Assembly (NCBI GenBank): GCA_014377485.1
Contig: JACMPM010000126.1
Location: 1-64,000, forward strand
DNA: 64,000 nt
Origin: Bacteriovorax sp.
GTDB taxonomy: Bacteria; Bdellovibrionota; Bacteriovoracia; Bacteriovoracales; Bacteriovoracaceae
Direction of reading: 5' to 3'
Numbering within the stretch: the stretch's first letter is position 1; each line of letters starts with the position of its first letter. The notes under the pieces are model-generated. The model searched no databases. It was not told where the DNA came from and saw only the letters and a list, made by a program, of their open reading frames with translations. The position numbers were made by a program, and so were the translations under genes. Below, one piece after another: positions 46,915 through 56,986 of this stretch.

Positions 46915-47919
46915 CTAAATTACTTCGATATCGCCAACTAAAGCACCATCTCTCTTAAGTGTCTGAAAGATTGAGATTAAATCTTCAGGAGCTACACCAA
47001 AAGCATTTAAGCTTTTTACAAGCTCATTAAGAGTAGTTCCTTTTTCCATAAAATAAACAGTGTTGGGCTTTCCACCTTTGTCTCCACCGTCGCCTTTTAC
47101 TTCAATTGTCAGGTCTGCATGGCTTATGGCTACAGGTGAAACTGTCACGTCTCCACCAGCTACAATTGTTCCTGTTCTTTCATTGATAACAATTTTTGCA
47201 GCACTGTCAGGGTTAACTTTAAAGTTTTCGATGATCGCCATTAACTGCACTATGTTTCTTTCATACTGAGCAGGAACAACTAAATCTATAGTTGTTGAAT
47301 CTTTTGCTGAAGCAAATTTACCGCCAAGTTCTTCGTTAATAACTTTTTCAATACGAGCAGCAGTTGTGAAGTCAGGATTGTTTAAACTTAAACGAAGTGA
47401 GTTTTTCTTTTCAAATTCAGTGACTACTTCTTTTTCAACGGTCGCTCCACCGGGAATTGTTCCAGTGGTTGCAAACTTAGCACCTTTTTTTAATCCACCG
47501 ATAGACATTGGTCCAGCAGCTACGGCGTAAATATTTCCGTCACCTCCCTTTAGGGGAGTGACTAATAAAGTACCACCGGCAAGCGAAGAGGCGTCTCCTA
47601 TCGAAGAAATCACCAGGTCAATTTTTTGTCCTACACGAGCGAATGCAGGAAGTTTTGCCGTGACAACAACAGCGGCAACATTTTTAGAAGTAATTTCAGT
47701 CTTAGGATTGAGTCCTAATTTCTCAAACATTTTTTTCAAGGAAGTGTTGGTGATTTCCCCACCAGCATCTCCAGTTCCATTTAAGCCGATTACTAAGCCG
47801 TAACCCAGAATGGGATTCTCTCTTACACCCTTTACTGACACCAAGTCTTTTAATCTGCTTGGAGCAGAGTAGGCGGTAGTCGTAAGGAGTAGCGATAGAG
47901 TTAAAAGAGTTTTCTTCAT
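46915..47919 (-). CDS. flgI: Flagellar P-ring protein FlgI
   Basis: A 334-aa periplasmic protein with signal peptide (TLLTLSLLLTTTAYSAPS). Conserved parts are LKDLVSVKGVRENPILGYGL, VIGLNGTGD, VVVTAKLPAFARVGQKIDL, VVINERTGTIVAGG-like (here KIVINERTGTIVAGGDVT) and TLNELVKSLNAFGVAPEDLI. Forms the peptidoglycan-layer bushing around the rod. 8 bp after flgH. Confidence 0.96.
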   Translation of the reverse strand: MKKTLLTLSLLLTTTAYSAPSRLKDLVSVKGVRENPILGYGLVIGLNGTGDAGGEITNTSLKKMFEKLGLNPKTEITSKNVAAVVVTAKLPAFARVGQKIDLVISSIGDASSLAGGTLLVTPLKGGDGNIYAVAAGPMSIGGLKKGAKFATTGTIPGGATVEKEVVTEFEKKNSLRLSLNNPDFTTAARIEKVINEELGGKFASAKDSTTIDLVVPAQYERNIVQLMAIIENFKVNPDSAAKIVINERTGTIVAGGDVTVSPVAISHADLTIEVKGDGGDKGGKPNTVYFMEKGTTLNELVKSLNAFGVAPEDLISIFQTLKRDGALVGDIEVI

Positions 47920-47927
47920 ATATTCCT

Positions 47928-48713
47928 TTATCTAACAACTGTTACATTTGATTCCAAGATTGCATCAGAGCTAACGGTATCGTTTTCTCCAATATCCTTT
48001 CTTGAAACGAGTGCTTGCACTTCAACCATGCGTTTTCTATTTTTAAAAAGAACATTTTTGCGACCTTTGATTAAAAGGTGTTCTCGGTTAATCTCTTCAA
48101 CGACTACCCCTGATATTTTATCCTGGGCACTGTCGCCGCCCGCAGTGTCAGCAGCAGCTTCTTTTTTTTCCGGAGTAGGTTTATCAGAGGTCGTAGGAGT
48201 TTTTGGATCTCCTGTTTTTGCAGCTTCAGAACTCGCTTTTGCATCATATGGGTTATCTGGAAAAGCTTTTTTTAATTCCATTGTGATTTCATTTTTTAAA
48301 CGAGGAAGTACGTTGATTTGTACTATGTCACCAGAATTTTTATTTTTATTATTAGAAAATAAAAATGCATTTGGATCGCTTCCTGCCCATAAACTGCCAT
48401 CGCTTCCTTTGTCAGTAAGGTCACTTGCCGTGTATCGTTTAACCGCTTCCTTTTCACCTTTGTATTGGCGTTTAACTCCTGGAGATACAGACTTTTCGTT
48501 ACCAGTAGTAACTGTGCGATCAGTGCGATTATATTCAGAGGATGTTTTGCGTTTTGGATGGCGGTATTGTTCGAAACCATCAGTAGGAATATCGACTTCA
48601 CTGTTTTGTCGATCTTGTTGCTCAAAGTCTTTATAAATCGTATTCATATAAGATGAACATGATGTTAAAAGAAAAGAAATCGCACCTAAGATAAAAAAAG
48701 ATTTCATTTTCAT
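47928..48713 (-). CDS. flgH: Flagellar L-ring lipoprotein FlgH
   Basis: A 261-aa lipoprotein with leader and lipobox LTSC. Family segments are SLWAGSDPNAFLFSN and the C-terminal KISGVVVEEINREHLLIKGR with VQALVSRKDIGENDTV. The centre has an Ala/Thr/Glu/Lys-rich insertion (about residues 155-195). It makes the outer-membrane ring of the basal body. Overlaps flgA by 4 bases. Confidence 0.93.
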   Translation of the reverse strand: MKMKSFFILGAISFLLTSCSSYMNTIYKDFEQQDRQNSEVDIPTDGFEQYRHPKRKTSSEYNRTDRTVTTGNEKSVSPGVKRQYKGEKEAVKRYTASDLTDKGSDGSLWAGSDPNAFLFSNNKNKNSGDIVQINVLPRLKNEITMELKKAFPDNPYDAKASSEAAKTGDPKTPTTSDKPTPEKKEAAADTAGGDSAQDKISGVVVEEINREHLLIKGRKNVLFKNRKRMVEVQALVSRKDIGENDTVSSDAILESNVTVVR

Positions 48714-49636
48714 AATTCGATTACCACTTTGTTGTAGTCTACAACTTTTCCAGCAATTATTTTGTTGTTATTGGGATTTCTAAGTTCAATCACTTCGCCG
48801 AACATTGCTGAACGAACAGGCATCGCTGTTCTTTGAAGGTTAATGTTTTGATTTTTGAGAGTCACTGTAACCGGTGTTCCAAAGTTAATTAGATTAACAG
48901 CTTGTAGATCGAGATTAGAAACAGCTGAGCCTTGAAGTATGTTTTTGTTGGCTTTGTAAAAATGAATATTATTAAGAGTCGTTAATACATTGTCTGGATT
49001 ACCAGAGAAAATCTCATCAGCATAAAAATCTTCTATTTCAAGATGTTTTTGTTGGAAACTTAAACTTCTTTTAGCTTTAAAAACTTTAATTTTCGCCAAA
49101 ATTTTAGATGAAAACCAAAGTGTTCTTGTGGAACTTTGTAAAGGGTTAGAGATATCGATTTTAATATTTTTTTCACCAAAACTATTACAACTTTCACAGT
49201 TGGCCTTAATCTGCTCCCCCTCAATTAAACCTAGGGTTTTAATTCCATTGAGTGACTTTGAATCGAGAAAGTAAAGATTGGAATCGTTAGTTAGTTGATC
49301 CCTTAATGTCGAATTCAATTCCATCAAAGTTAGCTTGCGTGGAGTGATTTCAACTGTAATTGAAGTAAAATCTTTTGATAATTCGCGCTTTAAAAAATCA
49401 GCACCAACTGTTCCATTTGAACTTGAAATTAATTGCGAAATTTTATTAGTAACAGCAGTATCACAATTAGTCTTATGAACAATATCGTTGCTGTTTAAAA
49501 TTTGATTGCTTTCCAGTCGATATACTTTAGAAAACAATTCTATAGAACAAGTACTCGCAGGAATTGTTTCAGCTGCAGTTTCAGCAGAAACCTTTAATGA
49601 AAGAAGAAGAAAAAAGAATAGTGTTTTGTTCATCAT
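48710..49636 (-). CDS. flgA: FlgA P-ring assembly chaperone
   Basis: A 308-aa periplasmic protein with signal peptide (TLFFFLLLSLKVSA). The C-terminal SAF/ChapFlgA domain has SNLDLQAVNLINFGTPVTVT, MPVRSAMFGEVIELRNPNNN and the end IIAGKVVDYNKVVI. Needed for P-ring polymerisation. The N-terminal ~150 residues are poorly conserved and longer than in E. coli FlgA. It follows flgG by 15 bp. Confidence 0.88.
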   Translation of the reverse strand: MMNKTLFFFLLLSLKVSAETAAETIPASTCSIELFSKVYRLESNQILNSNDIVHKTNCDTAVTNKISQLISSSNGTVGADFLKRELSKDFTSITVEITPRKLTLMELNSTLRDQLTNDSNLYFLDSKSLNGIKTLGLIEGEQIKANCESCNSFGEKNIKIDISNPLQSSTRTLWFSSKILAKIKVFKAKRSLSFQQKHLEIEDFYADEIFSGNPDNVLTTLNNIHFYKANKNILQGSAVSNLDLQAVNLINFGTPVTVTLKNQNINLQRTAMPVRSAMFGEVIELRNPNNNKIIAGKVVDYNKVVIEL

Positions 49637-49651
49637 TTTTATTTTTTTTAT

Positions 49652-50437
49652 CTATCTTATATTGTTTATTGTTTGCATCATTTGATCTGCAACACCCATA
49701 ACTTTTGAGTTCATTTCGTAAGCTCTTTGAGCGCGTATTAAGTCAGTCATTTCAGCCATTGGGCTTACGTTAGAAGCTTCTAGTGCACCTTGCGTTATTA
49801 CTCCAGCATTGTTTTCGCCTGCAATTGATTGAACAGGTTGACCACTTGAAAGAGAGACTTGGTAGAGATTTGCCCCCTGAGATTTAAGACCTACAGAGTT
49901 TACAAAAGTGAAAACTGGTATTTGGCCAACACTTGTAGGTTCAGTCTGACCTTTGACAAATGCTTCAGCTTTTCCATTTTCAGCGATCATTACACTTGAG
50001 GTATTTGGCGGAAAATTAAATCCAGGATAAATTTTGTAACCTTGTTTATTAACTAAAACTCCCTGAGCATCGACGTTGAAAGAGCCATCGCGAGTGAATT
50101 TTAATTCCCCATTCGGCATGATAATTCCAAAAAAACCTTCTCCGTTGACCATTAGGTCAAAAGGGTTGTTGGTAATTTGCGGACTTCCCGCTGTAAATTC
50201 TTTTCTAATGGCCGAAACCCGAGCACCAGAACCAATCTGAGTTCCAACATTATAAGTAGTAGATGATGAAGATCGAGCACCTGGTTCCTGAATTGTTTCA
50301 TAACCCAGGTCATCTATCTCTGTACGCCCACGTTTAAATCCAACAGTGTTAACGTTGGCAATATTGTTGGAAATCGTACTTACATAAGTTTCTTGAGCAG
50401 ACATACCTGAAGCGGCAGTGCTAAGGGCTTTCATCAT
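49652..50437 (-). CDS. flgG: Flagellar distal rod protein FlgG
   Basis: A 261-aa protein when started at ATG 50437, giving the canonical MMKALSTAASGMSAQE; the longer reading to 50494 adds a hydrophobic stretch not found in FlgG. Family parts are NNIANVNTVGFKRGR, FDLMVNGEGFFGI, VLVNKQGYKIYPGF and the C-terminal MAEMTDLIRAQRAYEMNSKV. Forms the distal rod through the P- and L-rings. Confidence 0.94.
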   Translation of the reverse strand: MMKALSTAASGMSAQETYVSTISNNIANVNTVGFKRGRTEIDDLGYETIQEPGARSSSSTTYNVGTQIGSGARVSAIRKEFTAGSPQITNNPFDLMVNGEGFFGIIMPNGELKFTRDGSFNVDAQGVLVNKQGYKIYPGFNFPPNTSSVMIAENGKAEAFVKGQTEPTSVGQIPVFTFVNSVGLKSQGANLYQVSLSSGQPVQSIAGENNAGVITQGALEASNVSPMAEMTDLIRAQRAYEMNSKVMGVADQMMQTINNIR

Positions 50438-50523
50438 TGCGTGAACTTCACTGAAGTTTGCGAACGTCATGATCATTATTACTGTTTTCATCATTAATGT
50501 CTTTTTCAGCCTAAACCTCTATA

Positions 50524-51357
50524 TTAAAACTTACCTATTTCGTTAACTGCTTTTCCACTCATTGTATCGTAGGTCTTTATTACTCTTTGAATTGATTCAA
50601 AATTTCTGTTGGCATTTATTAGTGCCGACATTTCACTAACAGCATTAACATTCGATTGTTCAACAAAACCTTGATGAACAGCGGTTTTGCTCTCACCAAT
50701 TTTAATATTCTGTTGATCTGGATTAATAAAAAGAGAACTTCCTTCTTTTTTTAAAGCATGGACATCGTTGAATTCCGTTAAAGAGAGGTCTGCAGCTTTA
50801 TTAGGTCCGCTAAAAACTTCACCATCAAGACTAATGGTAAATTTTTTATTTCCTACAGTGATAGCTCTTGATTCAGGTGGTGTGGTTAAGATTATTTTAC
50901 CGTCGGCACCAGCAATTGGAGGCGGCGATTTACTAAGAAGGAGGAAGCCTTGATCTGTAACAAGTTTACCGTCATTGTTTATGCTAAAATTGCCTTTGCG
51001 GGTATATCGAACACCATTAGGTGTGAGTACTTCAAAAAAGCCAGGTCCATTTAAAGCGTTGTCAAAAGCATTTCCAGTTGGAGAAAGTTGTCCTTGCTCA
51101 TGAAGTGTATAAGCACCATCAACTTTTACAAAAGAATCCTCACCATTATAACTGCGGTAAAAATCTTCAGGCTTCCACTCTTTTTGTGGAAGTTCTACTT
51201 GTCCTCCACCTTTTTCAAGTGCGGCTAAATATTCTTTAAACACTACTTGTTCCTTCTTGAAACCAGGAGTGTTGGCATTCGCTACGTTATTAGCGATCGT
51301 CTCAACATTTCGTTGCTGAGCGATTGCGCCTGATAAGGGTACCCAAAGTTCTCTCAA
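50524..51357 (-). CDS. flgF: Flagellar basal-body rod protein FlgF
   Basis: A 277-aa proximal-rod protein. N-terminal ANNVANANTPGFKKEQ, central FDNALNGPGFFEV and the C-terminal VNAVSEMSALINANRNFES are rod-family motifs; the arrangement before flgG favours FlgF. Start is TTG with a strong GAGGAGG 6 bases upstream. It is the first gene of the minus-strand flagellar cluster. Confidence 0.9.
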   Translation of the reverse strand: MRELWVPLSGAIAQQRNVETIANNVANANTPGFKKEQVVFKEYLAALEKGGGQVELPQKEWKPEDFYRSYNGEDSFVKVDGAYTLHEQGQLSPTGNAFDNALNGPGFFEVLTPNGVRYTRKGNFSINNDGKLVTDQGFLLLSKSPPPIAGADGKIILTTPPESRAITVGNKKFTISLDGEVFSGPNKAADLSLTEFNDVHALKKEGSSLFINPDQQNIKIGESKTAVHQGFVEQSNVNAVSEMSALINANRNFESIQRVIKTYDTMSGKAVNEIGKF

Positions 51358-51619: not shown

Positions 51620-51826
51620 ATGACTAAGAAAAAAAATTTCGAAGAGTCTTTAAAAGAATTAGAATCAATTGTCAGCAAATTAGAATCTGGTGATGTCGGC
51701 CTCGAACAGAGCTTAGAACAATTTGAAATTGGAACAAAACTTTATAAAGAGTGCAAAGAGCAACTTTCTGTCGCAGAAAAGAAAATTGCAGTTCTAACTG
51801 AAAGTTTAAAAGAAGAAGAGCTCTAA
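51620..51826 (+). CDS. xseB: Exodeoxyribonuclease VII small subunit
   Basis: A 68-aa protein: NFEESLKELESIVSKLESGD, then GLEQSLEQFEIGTKLYKECK and AEKKIAVL are the full conserved helical hairpin of XseB. With XseA (not in the window) it degrades single-stranded DNA to oligonucleotides. AGGGAC precedes ATG. The next gene begins 8 bp later, so the operon is shared with envelope genes rather than xseA. Confidence 0.95.
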   Translation: MTKKKNFEESLKELESIVSKLESGDVGLEQSLEQFEIGTKLYKECKEQLSVAEKKIAVLTESLKEEEL

Positions 51827-51834
51827 GGAATTTA

Positions 51835-52878
51835 ATGAATAAAGTACTCGCCTTTTTATCAATTATTTTATTACTTACTAGTTGTTCATCAATTAAGACC
51901 ATTAATCCTCATGATCAAAAAGGTTCAACCTCCAAGCCTGATCAAGTAGAGTTCGATCTCTATGAACATACTCATGGTCCAGTGGAAAAACCCATAGATG
52001 TAGTTCCTCAGGAAGAGACAGTAAGAATAGGTGAACGTGGTGGAGTTGTTTACGCCAATACCGAGCCGGGAACAGAAATCGGCTTTGTCGAAAATAAAAA
52101 AATTAGAATTGGTTTAAGCCTTGGGCCAGGTATCTACAGAACAATTAACTATGTTTCTTTTTTAAAAATTCTTGAAAGACAAAACTTAGCCCCGGATATT
52201 ATTACTGGAACAGGTTTTGGGGCAATAGTTGCAGCCATGTATGCCGTTGGAATGACTCCTGAAGTAATTGAGTGGAATTTTTATAAATATTTCAAAGAAA
52301 AGAAAAAAAATAAACTATATGATAAAGATTGGGTTAATGAAATTGATGAAATGTTCTTAACGAAATTTAAAAACATAAATATTCAAGACACCAAGAAAAA
52401 ATTCTTCATAACTCTATACGATCATAATACTAAAAAAACTTATTATTTCGATAAAGGCAACATTCGAGACTTGCTACTACTCAACCTTAGGCTTTCAAAT
52501 AATTTCACAGAATCTAAAAGTGGTCAAAAATATTCAACCGCATTTGAAAAAGAAGTTTTTAATGCCAGATTATTAAGACAATTGGGAGCTGAGTTTACAA
52601 TTGCGGTAGACGTATTGGGGTCAAAGTTTGACTTTGAAACGACAAATGAATTTCTTATAGGTGTTTACGGAAGAACAGCTGGCCGTATTCAAAAAGAAAG
52701 AAAAGATTTTGATTATAGTGTGACACTCCCGCTTAATTTAATGAATCTCGATTCAACTAAAGACAGTTCACTTTTTATGCAAAAAACGTACGATTTTATG
52801 CAAAAGCAATCACCAGTCATTCTAAAGAAAATACAGGCAAAGCTTGATAACTTGTCTCACTCAGGGAACGAAAAATGA
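51835..52878 (+). CDS. Patatin-like lipoprotein lacking the nucleophile serine
   Basis: A 347-aa lipoprotein with leader and lipobox LTSC (Cys17). From about residue 90 it matches the patatin/RssA-type fold: RIGLSLGPGIYRTINYVSFL, then IITGTGFGAIVAAMYAVGMT. Active patatins have GxSxG at this site; here it is G-T-G-F-G (125-129), with Gly127 in place of Ser, and the glycine-rich oxyanion loop is altered. It is therefore probably not a phospholipase. Its end overlaps the PBP gene by 4 bases, suggesting a structural or regulatory role in the envelope (inference). Confidence 0.78.
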   Translation: MNKVLAFLSIILLLTSCSSIKTINPHDQKGSTSKPDQVEFDLYEHTHGPVEKPIDVVPQEETVRIGERGGVVYANTEPGTEIGFVENKKIRIGLSLGPGIYRTINYVSFLKILERQNLAPDIITGTGFGAIVAAMYAVGMTPEVIEWNFYKYFKEKKKNKLYDKDWVNEIDEMFLTKFKNINIQDTKKKFFITLYDHNTKKTYYFDKGNIRDLLLLNLRLSNNFTESKSGQKYSTAFEKEVFNARLLRQLGAEFTIAVDVLGSKFDFETTNEFLIGVYGRTAGRIQKERKDFDYSVTLPLNLMNLDSTKDSSLFMQKTYDFMQKQSPVILKKIQAKLDNLSHSGNEK

Positions 52879-55559
52879 AAGGACTTATATTTAAAATCAT
52901 ATTAACTCTTTTAGGTCTGGGGTTTATTGCAGGTGTTACTGGTGCTGTGGTTTTTACATATTTTAACTTAGATTTACCAAAAATCGACAAGCTTCAAGAT
53001 TACAAACCAAATTTAGCCTCTCAGATTTATTCAAAAGATGGTTATCTATTGGCTGAGCTTGGTTTAGAAAAACGAGAAATCATCGAAATAAAAGATGTTC
53101 CAGCTCGTGTAATTGATGCATTTCTTTCAGCAGAGGATGATAAGTTTTTTGAACATTCCGGAGTAGATTATTTTGGATTGGCGCGTGCGATGTTTGCCAA
53201 TTTCAGAGCAGGGAAGGTTGTTCAGGGTGGAAGTACGATTACACAACAGGTTGCAAAATCGCTTCTATTAAGTTCTGAAAGATCAATCACTAGAAAAGTA
53301 AAAGATTTTATTCTCGCTCAACGTATTGAAGAAAAACTTAATAAAAAAGAAATCTTGTATCTTTATTTAAACCAAGTGTATCTCGGTGGTGGATACTACG
53401 GCATTAAAGCGGCTGCACATGGCTATTATAATAAAGAATTGAAAGATATTACAGTTGCAGAGGCTGCAATGCTGGCAGGTCTGCTAGTGGCGCCAGGTAA
53501 ATACTCGCCTTACGTTAGCCCTCAGGCTGCAAGAAAGCGTCAGCATTATGTATTAGAGCGAATGTTTAAACTCGGAAAAATTACTAAAGCTCAACATGAC
53601 CAATCTTTACTAGAAAAAACTATTTACCGGATCCGTGAAGATGAATTACGTGCAGGATACTTTACAGAATGGGTTCGTCAAAAAGTCGTAGATACTGTTG
53701 GAGAAAAACCTTTTTTAGTTGATGGTTTTAAAATTAGAACAAGTCTTGATTGGGAATTGCAAAAAGTTGCCGAAGAACAAGTTAAAAGGGGAATAAAAGA
53801 AATTGATAAACGCCAAGGATACAAAGGACCATTTGCTCACATTGGAAATGAAGAGTTTTCAAAATTCGAAAAAGAAAATCGTCGTAATATATATAAAAAA
53901 CGCTCACAGTTTTTCTCTATAAATGATGCTCATGAAAAGGTTTATGAATTCGAATTCAATGAAAAAATTTATAATCAATTAAAGGAAGACGAAAAGAAAT
54001 CTCGCCTGGCTAGTGGAGATGAAAGTTTTATCGTTGGTTTAAATGAACAAGATTCTTTACCAAACGTATTAGAGACAAATGTTCAATATGAAGCAGTTGT
54101 AACGAAATTAGATGACGTTTCTAGATTGATTTATATCTCACTCGCAGGATCTCCCGGAATAATACCTTTTGATTTTTTTAAATGGGCTCATAAAAGAAGT
54201 ATCAGTGAAAACACAGCTTATTATCAAGAAGTGAGCAAGCCTTCAACAATTCTAAGAGTTGGAGATTTAATTCATGTTCAAATGGTAAAAAAGTCAGCAT
54301 CGATAACAGGTTATTTAGGAAAAGAAGGAGTCAATGCACTTAATAAATCTAAAAATGCGAGCTTCATTCGCAATCAAAAATATATTGTTGGTTTGTTGGA
54401 TCAGGTCGCAGAAGTTCAAGGTGCTTTATTTTCAATGGACGTTCGCACTGGTGAAATCGTTAGTTACGTTGGTGGAAGTGATTTTAAAATATCAAAGTTC
54501 AATCGAGTCATTCAAGCAAAACGTCAGCCCGGATCTTCGTTTAAGCCAATTCTTTACTCCGCAGCTTTAGAGCATGGTTATAATCCAACAACTATTATTA
54601 TGGATACACCTGAAGCTATGCCCGGTTTTGATTCAGCTTCTAGTTGGAAACCTAAAAACTATGAAGGTGATTATAAAGGTCCCGTAACTATGAGAATTGC
54701 GCTCGAAGAATCAAGAAATATTCCAACAATAAAAATGGCAGACAAGGTTGGAGTTGGAACAATTTTAAAATTCGCAGAACGTATTGGATTCAATGCTAAA
54801 TTAGATAATAACTTAAGCATTGCCCTTGGTACTTTTGGGGTTAGCCCTCGCGATCTTGTTACAACTTATGCACTTTATCCGAATGGTGGAAAATTTGTAA
54901 CTCCAAAGGCAATTCTTTCTGTCATCGACCGAGATGGAAAAAAATATATTATCAATGAAGTCGAAAAAGACATGAAAATTCCAGGTGAGAGCAAAGACGG
55001 CGACAAGGAAAAAAAAGATACACCTGTCGTTGAAACAACAAATCCATTCTTAAAAACCTTAGGCGATAAACAAGTTTATGATCAACGCTTGGCCTATGTT
55101 ATGACCAACCTAATGAAGGGAGTTGTAACATCCGGGACGGCAGCATCTGCTCGCGATTTAAGTCCAAATATTGCAGGAAAAACGGGAACAACAAACGATT
55201 TTATAGATGCATGGTTTGTTGGATTTACATCAAATGTTGTTACTGCTGTTTGGAACGGTTTTGATGATAATAAAACTCTAGGACACGGTGAAACTGGAGC
55301 GAAAGCAGCACTGCCTGTTTGGAAAGAGTATATGCGTGCGAATATTAAAAAATTTGGAGATCAGCCCTTTGAAATTCCTGCTGGAATTACTCAGGCATGG
55401 GTTGATAAGGAAACTGGACGAAAAGCAGCACCAAATGCCCCTGGCGCAATATTAGAGTCATTTGCCGAAACTAGTGAACAAGCTTCTGAAGCTGTTGGAA
55501 CTGGTAGTCCACTGAAGGCTCGACCTCTTGGTGACGATGAATATTTTGAAAATCAATAA
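52875..55559 (+). CDS. mrcA: Class A penicillin-binding protein, PBP1A
   Basis: An 894-aa bifunctional wall synthase: one membrane helix (about 8-30), then GT51 glycosyltransferase (LSAEDDKFFEH with catalytic Glu87, GGSTITQQVAKSLLL, RKVKDFILAQRIEEKLNK), an OB-like insert and the transpeptidase with SSFKP (Ser554, Lys557), SRN (613-615) and KTG (769-771). It polymerises and cross-links peptidoglycan in the periplasm. Length is typical of PBP1A. It overlaps the upstream patatin-like gene. Confidence 0.95.
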   Translation: MKGLIFKIILTLLGLGFIAGVTGAVVFTYFNLDLPKIDKLQDYKPNLASQIYSKDGYLLAELGLEKREIIEIKDVPARVIDAFLSAEDDKFFEHSGVDYFGLARAMFANFRAGKVVQGGSTITQQVAKSLLLSSERSITRKVKDFILAQRIEEKLNKKEILYLYLNQVYLGGGYYGIKAAAHGYYNKELKDITVAEAAMLAGLLVAPGKYSPYVSPQAARKRQHYVLERMFKLGKITKAQHDQSLLEKTIYRIREDELRAGYFTEWVRQKVVDTVGEKPFLVDGFKIRTSLDWELQKVAEEQVKRGIKEIDKRQGYKGPFAHIGNEEFSKFEKENRRNIYKKRSQFFSINDAHEKVYEFEFNEKIYNQLKEDEKKSRLASGDESFIVGLNEQDSLPNVLETNVQYEAVVTKLDDVSRLIYISLAGSPGIIPFDFFKWAHKRSISENTAYYQEVSKPSTILRVGDLIHVQMVKKSASITGYLGKEGVNALNKSKNASFIRNQKYIVGLLDQVAEVQGALFSMDVRTGEIVSYVGGSDFKISKFNRVIQAKRQPGSSFKPILYSAALEHGYNPTTIIMDTPEAMPGFDSASSWKPKNYEGDYKGPVTMRIALEESRNIPTIKMADKVGVGTILKFAERIGFNAKLDNNLSIALGTFGVSPRDLVTTYALYPNGGKFVTPKAILSVIDRDGKKYIINEVEKDMKIPGESKDGDKEKKDTPVVETTNPFLKTLGDKQVYDQRLAYVMTNLMKGVVTSGTAASARDLSPNIAGKTGTTNDFIDAWFVGFTSNVVTAVWNGFDDNKTLGHGETGAKAALPVWKEYMRANIKKFGDQPFEIPAGITQAWVDKETGRKAAPNAPGAILESFAETSEQASEAVGTGSPLKARPLGDDEYFENQ

Positions 55560-55673: not shown

Positions 55674-56693
55674 ATGAAGTTATTTAAAAAAGATCGACCT
55701 CGATATTCTCTCGCGCTGATATTTTCATTGGCGTTGCACTTTTTTGCTTTTGGATATATTTACAAAAATATTCAACATGAACAATCATCACAAAAATTGG
55801 GCTTACAGAAAAATTCAAATATTGCTCATACAGTTAAATTAGATTCCTTAAAATTTATAACTCACAAACAACTTCAAGAAATTAAGGATTCTAGAAATAA
55901 GCAAATTGTTGCCAATGAACTTAATGGCAAAAAAGAGCGCCCAAAAGCATCTCGCTTTGCTGGAGAAGTAGATCAATCTTTTGACCGTCAAACCATGGCA
56001 ACTACTAATGGAAATTTTAAAAAAGCCGGCCTAGGAAATAAAAATGGATCTTTAATTTCATCAGCTCAAACTAAAGAACCAGCTACCGCCCCTAAGAAAG
56101 TCGTTCTAAATGAAAAACCCAAAAACTTGCGCCCTAAAACCCTTAATTTAAGTGATTTGGGAGCATTTCATATAACGAAAGTTGAAGATGAAGAAAAAAT
56201 TCAAGCTGCCGCACTTGAAGAAATAAATCGTAAATTAGCTTCAGAAGTAAAACATGCTGCAGCTGTGGGAATTGATCAAGGAAGTGCAGATACTACTGGA
56301 TTGGCCAGTAATAACGATTTTGTTGAAGATGTGCCATTGGGTGACATGACTAATTTAAACACTACTGAGTTTAAGTATTACGGCTTTTATCACCGCATTC
56401 GCCAGAAGCTAGAGCAATACTGGGGCAGTACAATTCAAAGTAAGGCGAAAAATCTTTATAAATCTGGAAGACGACTTCCTTCGAGTGAAAATCTAATTAC
56501 TGCTATAACAGTCACACTAGATGACCGCGGAAATATTTTAGATATTAAAATTGATGGAACGAGTGGAATAAGAGAACTCGATCAAGCTGCGATCGAGTCC
56601 TTTAATAAAGCGGGCCCATTTCCAAACCCTCCGAAAGGTTTGCTTGTTGGTGGCAGGGCCGTAATACAGTGGGGATTTGTTGTAAAAAGTTAG
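55674..56693 (+). CDS. TonB-like energy-coupling protein
   Basis: A 339-aa protein with an N-terminal membrane anchor (YSLALIFSLALHFFAFGYIY), a long periplasmic linker rich in Lys, Asn and Pro, and a C-terminal TonB domain (HRIRQKLEQYWGSTIQSKAK, then TVTLDDRGNILDIKIDGTSG and LDQAAIESFNKAGPFPNPPK). It could couple ExbB/ExbD energy to outer-membrane receptors, or belong to the related AgmX/TolA-type proteins. No exbB or receptor gene is adjacent. Convergent with, and overlapping by 4 bases, the next gene. Confidence 0.82.
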   Translation: MKLFKKDRPRYSLALIFSLALHFFAFGYIYKNIQHEQSSQKLGLQKNSNIAHTVKLDSLKFITHKQLQEIKDSRNKQIVANELNGKKERPKASRFAGEVDQSFDRQTMATTNGNFKKAGLGNKNGSLISSAQTKEPATAPKKVVLNEKPKNLRPKTLNLSDLGAFHITKVEDEEKIQAAALEEINRKLASEVKHAAAVGIDQGSADTTGLASNNDFVEDVPLGDMTNLNTTEFKYYGFYHRIRQKLEQYWGSTIQSKAKNLYKSGRRLPSSENLITAITVTLDDRGNILDIKIDGTSGIRELDQAAIESFNKAGPFPNPPKGLLVGGRAVIQWGFVVKS

Positions 56694-56986
56694 TGAATTT
56701 TGTTTTTGAGAAGTTCTTTTAACTTACCAATACCTTCCATGAGGACATAATCATTCCATATAGAATCAAGCTCTCTGATCGTTTCAATTAGTTGAACTGC
56801 AGCGTGATCTTTCGACATTTTTTCTTCGTCTGAAAGATGATCAACAGCAACTAAAAGTGCATTCATCACAGGTGAGTTGCAAATCTTAGCTAGCCTCTCT
56901 TCATAAGTAGCATTGATTCTTTTCTCTTTGCTCTTGATCACAGCGGTATTGAGAAGCTGAATAGCGTCTTGTTTATCAGACATCAT
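56690..56986 (-). CDS. Small helical protein of unknown function
   Basis: A 98-aa hydrophilic helical protein (ATG at 56986 or the next codon), with no signal peptide or known domain. Segments DAIQLLNTAVIKSKEKRINA and HAAVQLIETIRELDSIWNDY suggest a helical bundle. Stands alone, end-to-end with the TonB-like gene. Confidence 0.6.
   Translation of the reverse strand: MMSDKQDAIQLLNTAVIKSKEKRINATYEERLAKICNSPVMNALLVAVDHLSDEEKMSKDHAAVQLIETIRELDSIWNDYVLMEGIGKLKELLKNKIH

Follow-up and report, generated by a model that had tools for sequence, protein, structure and literature searches.

The window analysed here, a 64,000-nucleotide stretch of Bacteriovorax sp. (contig JACMPM010000126.1), carries, directly in front of the gene for the class A penicillin-binding protein (PBP) PBP1A, a gene for a lipoprotein with a patatin fold, which we term pseudo-patatin. 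Judged by its sequence, pseudo-patatin is a patatin pseudoenzyme and not a phospholipase, as both residues of the catalytic dyad have been lost, in the window protein as in its relatives. We propose that it is a cognate regulator of PBP1A, either an activator or a positioning factor, because its build of lipid anchor, tether and globular domain resembles that of the PBP1B activators LpoB and LpoP; the probability of this reading is roughly 0.45. The gene and the parts of its product are the following:

51835..52878, + strand: pseudo-patatin lipoprotein gene, 347 aa (open reading frame list, Pfam, alignment, model, structure match)
51835..51885, + strand: type II signal peptide, residues 1-17, with lipobox LTSC, lipidated Cys17 and Ser at +2 (sequence; PF08139 below cut-off, E 0.0034)
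51886..52101, + strand: tether, residues 18-89, 72 aa, probably disordered (low predicted local distance difference test score, pLDDT; lengths in relatives)
52102..52872, + strand: patatin-fold domain, residues 90-346 (pLDDT mostly >90, with a weak stretch near 221-230; 5fya_B, Z 25.8)
52213..52215, + strand: Gly127, at the position of the nucleophile Ser (alignment)
52270..52275, + strand: Glu146-Trp147 (conservation in alignment)
52537..52539, + strand: Thr235, at the catalytic-Asp column (alignment; approximate, in a variable stretch)

When aligned with canonical patatins, GTGFG (residues 125-129) falls on their GTSxG motif, which puts Gly127 at the nucleophile, and the glycine-rich oxyanion loop reads LGPGIY against mostly LGGGA or LGGGG in the canonical sequences, with Gly97 and Gly99 remaining. 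The initial annotation of this DNA had pointed to both features, GTGFG in place of GxSxG and the altered loop, and the alignment confirms them. A further point, beyond that annotation, is that the second residue of the dyad, the Asp of DG[GA], is also lost: Thr235 has replaced it, and no DG[GA] string occurs anywhere in the window protein.

The relatives were family-search matches minus eight weaker ones, plus diverged copies found later beside PBP1A. The linked set comprises 84 sequences encoded beside xseB and/or PBP1A, the window protein included; it also contains locus L074, truncated where its contig stops, and L070, probably a contaminant of another family. Indeed, the short contig C88 in a metagenome-assembled genome of the same genus (G011; L070 / L267) carries a Glu-type, other-family pseudo-patatin and is probably contamination. 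Fifteen unlinked, canonical patatins (14 from the family Bacteriovoracaceae and one Methylophaga protein) form the second set, and the third set, of 20 sequences, covers ten other families of the phylum and draws ten of its members from family f6, presumed to be Bdellovibrionaceae. Alignment A1 was made from 77 linked rows, L070, L071, L074 and L102 and then L077, L091 and L096 being omitted; L194 was omitted from alignment A2.

Ser and Asp are both kept in 15 of 15 canonical patatins. The Ser is missing from 82 of the 84 linked sequences, whose nucleophile column holds Gly in 68, Glu in 12, Asp in 2 and Ser in 2; their Asp column holds another residue in 72, a gap in 12 (in L074 owing to the contig end) and Asp in none. 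Among the other-family sequences the nucleophile column is Glu in 19 and Gly in one, and Asp occupies its column in 0 of 20; 30 further loci, nine of which repeat earlier genes, have Glu at the nucleophile without exception, and no DGG motif was found in them. Ser stands at the aligned column in two linked sequences, L142 and L143, both of them short, diverged and gapped at the Asp column. No linked sequence has Ser and Asp together at the aligned columns, and so the orthologues with an intact, active site that would have told against the initial annotation did not turn up among them. Three sequences (L040 and L064 of the linked set, L203 of the other-family set) have a DG[GA] string outside the aligned column; in L040, which has Gly at the nucleophile position, the string is close to the aligned place, so the Asp may be kept there.

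The contrast between linked and canonical sequences goes well beyond chance. These alignments make the pseudoenzyme status of pseudo-patatin well supported, and the earlier view that hydrolysis is unlikely is strengthened by the absence of both dyad residues in relatives across the phylum. Because the other-family sequences hold Glu and are without the Asp, the Gly of the window protein is the local form of an older loss, in which both catalytic residues disappeared long ago; the order of replacement may have been Ser, then Glu, then Gly. A chance loss in one strain is rejected, since the same residues are absent in linked, other-family and further loci.

The fold has been kept. The AlphaFold2 model of the window protein, built with 70 sequences, has a mean pLDDT of 85.6; 252 of its 347 residues reach at least 90, and the tether scores low; its best match among solved structures is PlpD (5fya_B; Foldseek E 4.3e-12, Z 25.8, root-mean-square deviation 2.8 over 232 residues). 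The model of an f6 member is also a patatin fold (mean pLDDT 81.8; PlpD Z 26.1, deviation 2.6 over 233), and the Pfam Patatin profile (PF01734) scores 39.1 bits over residues 95-185 of the window protein, its cut-off being 27.7. Ahead of this domain, the lipobox column holds Cys in 99% of the 84 linked and in 20/20 other-family sequences, and in 0/15 canonical ones. The tether has a median length of 56 aa (35-82) in 83 linked and of 52.5 aa (16-73) in the 20 other-family sequences; in the 15 canonical patatins, the stretch from the stop codon ahead of the frame to the domain is 4-48 residues long. Lipobox Cys, predicted tether and predicted globular domain together make an Lpo-like build. Lipoproteins of E. 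coli are sorted by the residue at +2 (Asp); no Asp was seen there in the starts inspected, and the window protein is probably a lipoprotein of the outer membrane.

The substitution pattern is that of a functioning gene under purifying selection. Compared with the nearest relative, the nonsynonymous and synonymous rates (dN and dS) are 0.060 and 0.995 for pseudo-patatin, and 0.031 and 0.926 for PBP1A. The open frame, a dN far lower than dS and the conserved Trp147 lead us to reject a simple pseudogene. Trp147 is present in 95% of linked and 20/20 other-family sequences and is not conserved in canonical ones, and its neighbour Glu146 is found in 83% of linked, 90% of other-family and 40% of canonical sequences; by this conservation, the pair possibly marks a new working surface. 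The closest six named relatives, at 69-88% identity, come from Bacteriovorax sp. and other Bacteriovoracaceae metagenome-assembled genomes.

The second line of evidence is the gene order. The neighbours of pseudo-patatin in the window are:

51620..51826, + strand: xseB, exodeoxyribonuclease VII small subunit, 5' of pseudo-patatin (Pfam PF02609, E 6.9e-20; TIGR01280, E 3.5e-21)
52875..52878, + strand: ATGA shared between the pseudo-patatin stop and the PBP1A start (sequence)
52875..55559, + strand: PBP1A, a class A PBP of 894 aa, with GT51 58-230, OB-like 401-474 and transpeptidase 518-819 (Pfam, NCBIfam)
55674..56693, + strand: TonB/TolA-like protein with a TonB C-terminal domain, 3' of PBP1A (Pfam PF13103, E 9.5e-10; synteny)

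Eight bases separate xseB from the pseudo-patatin start. The reading frames given earlier for pseudo-patatin and PBP1A (51835-52878 and 52875-55559) stand, and so does their 4-bp overlap, which is the ATGA. The PBP1A frame matches the subfamily profile TIGR02074 (PBP_1a_fam) with E 2.9e-178 and 594 bits against a cut-off of 508.75. On the opposite strand and divergent from xseB lies a flagellar cluster (46915-51357, -), with flgI, flgH, flgA and flgG- and flgF-like genes named by eye. After the TonB-like gene, a 98-aa frame without a Pfam family follows, also on the opposite strand (56690-56986, -); its relatives occupy 13 loci including the window, the other-family ones being L204 (E 9e-10) and L203 (E 2e-4).

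PBP1A is present in 125 of 129 Bacteriovoracaceae genomes, and what lies between xseB and PBP1A could be resolved in 113 of the 129, the rest being contig ends, genomes with no PBP1A match or loci not fetched. The order xseB, pseudo-patatin, PBP1A on one strand is found in 82 of these 113 (75/91 of the loci read first and 7/40 of those read later), and the linked genes often touch or overlap. The patatin match tallies of 233/290 and 270/368 include canonical paralogues and are not counts of pseudo-patatin. In two of the 113 intervals (L124 and L150) a short lipoprotein of unrecognisable sequence is found instead, possibly an end stage of decay. Outside the family, a frequent order is xseA, xseB, ispA-like, tlyA-like, pseudo-patatin (ispA and tlyA named by eye), and four of these 20 loci (L203, L204, L208 and L209), which belong to three families, have PBP1A with the TonB-like gene directly 3' of pseudo-patatin. 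We surveyed the distance to PBP1A in 20 genomes, mostly without PBP1A beside the gene: in the eight outside families f1 and f6, PBP1A is 5.0-8.3 kb off in five and on another contig in three. The linkage to PBP1A is thus real, not universal, and the absence of any such linkage in relatives, which would have told against the initial annotation, is not what the 82 linked genomes display.

Many relatives also have the TonB/TolA-like gene as the following member of the cluster; L205 has it directly beside pseudo-patatin, without PBP1A. Its product may belong to the same function, because TolA tunes PBP1B-LpoB in E. coli (PMC4632607).

We propose the following mechanism. From its Cys17 anchor in the outer membrane, the protein would extend its flexible tether through the peptidoglycan and so bring the patatin-fold domain into contact with PBP1A; the docking surface perhaps lies near the conserved Glu146-Trp147. 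We infer the outer-membrane location, the contact with PBP1A, an effect on its activity and the docking surface. A fuller account is more tentative than the regulatory role itself: an old phospholipase, which lost both catalytic residues early in Bdellovibrionota, would now regulate PBP1A across the periplasm, perhaps gated by a lipid bound in the former active site. Some Bdellovibrionota are predators whose growth takes place within other bacteria and whose cell wall has to be made and remodelled to a special timetable; if the proposal is true, a dedicated regulator of a main cell-wall synthase would be useful in that setting.

Several findings weigh against a role as PBP1A regulator. Among the 113 resolved genomes, 29 are without pseudo-patatin and have no room for the gene, with PBP1A kept. 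On a quick PBP1A tree built from 93 sequences, of which 69 come with the gene, 4 are other-family sequences that also have it and 20 belong to the 29 gene-less genomes, presence changes at least four times, PBP1A staying throughout; these changes are likely losses, because other families have the gene. PBP1A is on a different contig in six of the 12 f6 genomes searched and at a distance of 33-327 kb in the other six. No region of PBP1A differs specifically in length or conservation with the presence of the lipoprotein among the same 69, 20 and 4 sequences; positions 260 and 262 tend to differ, though not in all gene-less lineages, and the change is shared by some gene-bearing ones. PBP1A does have an OB-like domain, which would be a candidate docking domain for the lipoprotein. 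A mirror-tree comparison over 49 genomes gave a partial correlation with PBP1A of 0.31 against 0.20-0.29 for other pairs, which is unspecific. Finally, an LpoB-family protein is found in 117 of the 129 family genomes, the window's own included (L230), and the post of activator may, by these profile matches, already be filled by LpoB-family or LpoA-like proteins. Of the activator or positioning role that the initial annotation had drawn from the Lpo proteins, the likeness in build therefore stands, and the repeated changes with PBP1A kept, the separation in other families, the common LpoB-family proteins and the unspecific co-evolution tests pull the other way.

LpoA (PF04348) matches occur in 17 of the 129 family genomes, two over the cut-off and 15 weaker, and all but one of these 17 matches fall in frames of 570-704 aa; four of seven other-family genomes checked have LpoA over the cut-off. 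With two genomes over the cut-off and 15 weak, a vacancy of LpoA is not claimed. The LpoB-family lipoprotein of the window's own genome (L230:3871-4485, -) has other lipoprotein-like genes on the same strand, and no PBP was recognised in the stretch read. The same genome has three further GT51 proteins. A second class A PBP (L236:706-2652, +; 648 aa) has about 130 residues ahead of its GT51 match and a weak transpeptidase match; a UB2H domain was suspected there by eye, and Pfam found none.

The same evidence bears on the strongest alternative, namely that pseudo-patatin is only a neighbour. It would be a lipoprotein of the envelope whose function has nothing to do with PBP1A, its gene would simply sit in an old housekeeping cluster (xseB, PBP1A, TonB-like), and the linkage would reflect shared transcription and not contact with PBP1A. 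The changes of presence that leave PBP1A in place and the unspecific co-evolution tests suit this explanation; so do the f6 loci L192, L194 and L199, in which the gene sits between tlyA-like and pepP-like genes (named by eye) with PBP1A elsewhere, and the DNA repair gene xseB, whose linkage is as frequent as that of PBP1A in the loci read. It fits less well with the recurrence of the order pseudo-patatin, PBP1A in three other families and with the distances of 5.0-8.3 kb in five of the eight genomes surveyed outside f1 and f6, the other three having PBP1A on another contig. On balance we regard a mere neighbour as rather unlikely.

A ligand-binding pseudoenzyme is doubtful to a greater degree. 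Here the old pocket would bind a lipid (phospholipid, undecaprenyl phosphate or lipid II) and sense or carry it, with or without signalling to PBP1A. Both models keep the patatin fold, and the Glu at the nucleophile elbow is nearly invariant in the other-family sequences read, which speaks against simple decay; the position varies, however, in the window's own family, as counted above for the 84 linked sequences. That same elbow Glu could make pseudo-patatin an active enzyme with another catalytic residue, which we consider highly improbable, as the window protein and 68 of the 84 linked sequences have Gly there and no Asp stands at its column in linked or other-family sequences. Should a role at PBP1A fall away, there is still a defined and widespread family of patatin pseudoenzymes built as lipoproteins.

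Among known proteins, PlpD of Pseudomonas aeruginosa (5fqu, 5fya) has the patatin fold in common with the window protein and is its best PDB sequence match (E 7.6e-6). PlpD is fused to an outer-membrane barrel; the window protein has no such barrel, is a tethered lipoprotein and is without Ser and Asp. RssA-like patatins, the unlinked sequences of our comparison, belong to the same fold family (NCBIfam RssA, E 1e-7, 31.5 bits, below the cut-off of 272), and unlike the window protein they keep GTSxG and DGG and have no lipobox Cys. In Bdellovibrio bacteriovorus HD100, xseA is bd0197 and xseB is bd0198 (PMC3593177), and bd0199 serves as a growth-phase marker (PMC5430801). By gene order, the relative of the window gene may lie near bd0201, and growth-phase expression would suit a cell-wall role. 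Among the open-access matches listed (titles and abstract beginnings) no paper dealt with pseudo-patatin, which is no proof of absence.

LpoA of E. coli activates PBP1A, the proposed partner of the window protein as well; it consists of tetratricopeptide-like repeats and a periplasmic-binding-protein fold (PMC4632607), which differs from the patatin fold, and PF04348 gave no match to the window protein. LpoB of E. coli and LpoP of P. aeruginosa activate PBP1B and consist of a lipidated Cys, a disordered N-terminal tether and a globular domain, a layout with which they reach class A PBPs from the outer membrane (PMC4632607, PMC7267771). Their globular fold is unrelated to that of the window protein, and their partner is PBP1B, whereas the window neighbour is PBP1A; no Pfam match to LpoB (PF13036) was found in the window protein, and the A1 profile aligned with the LpoB-family protein of the same genome in the signal peptide alone. 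By these comparisons the window protein is not a homologue of LpoA or LpoB, and any kinship with the Lpo proteins would at most be one of function. The build, however, is shared: lipidated Cys, predicted tether and C-terminal globular domain. LpoP shows that unrelated globular folds are able to do the work of an activator (PMC7267771). If the proposal is true, the patatin fold would be a further unrelated fold among the outer-membrane activators of class A PBPs, and a patatin turned regulator would show again that PBP activators arise from unrelated proteins.

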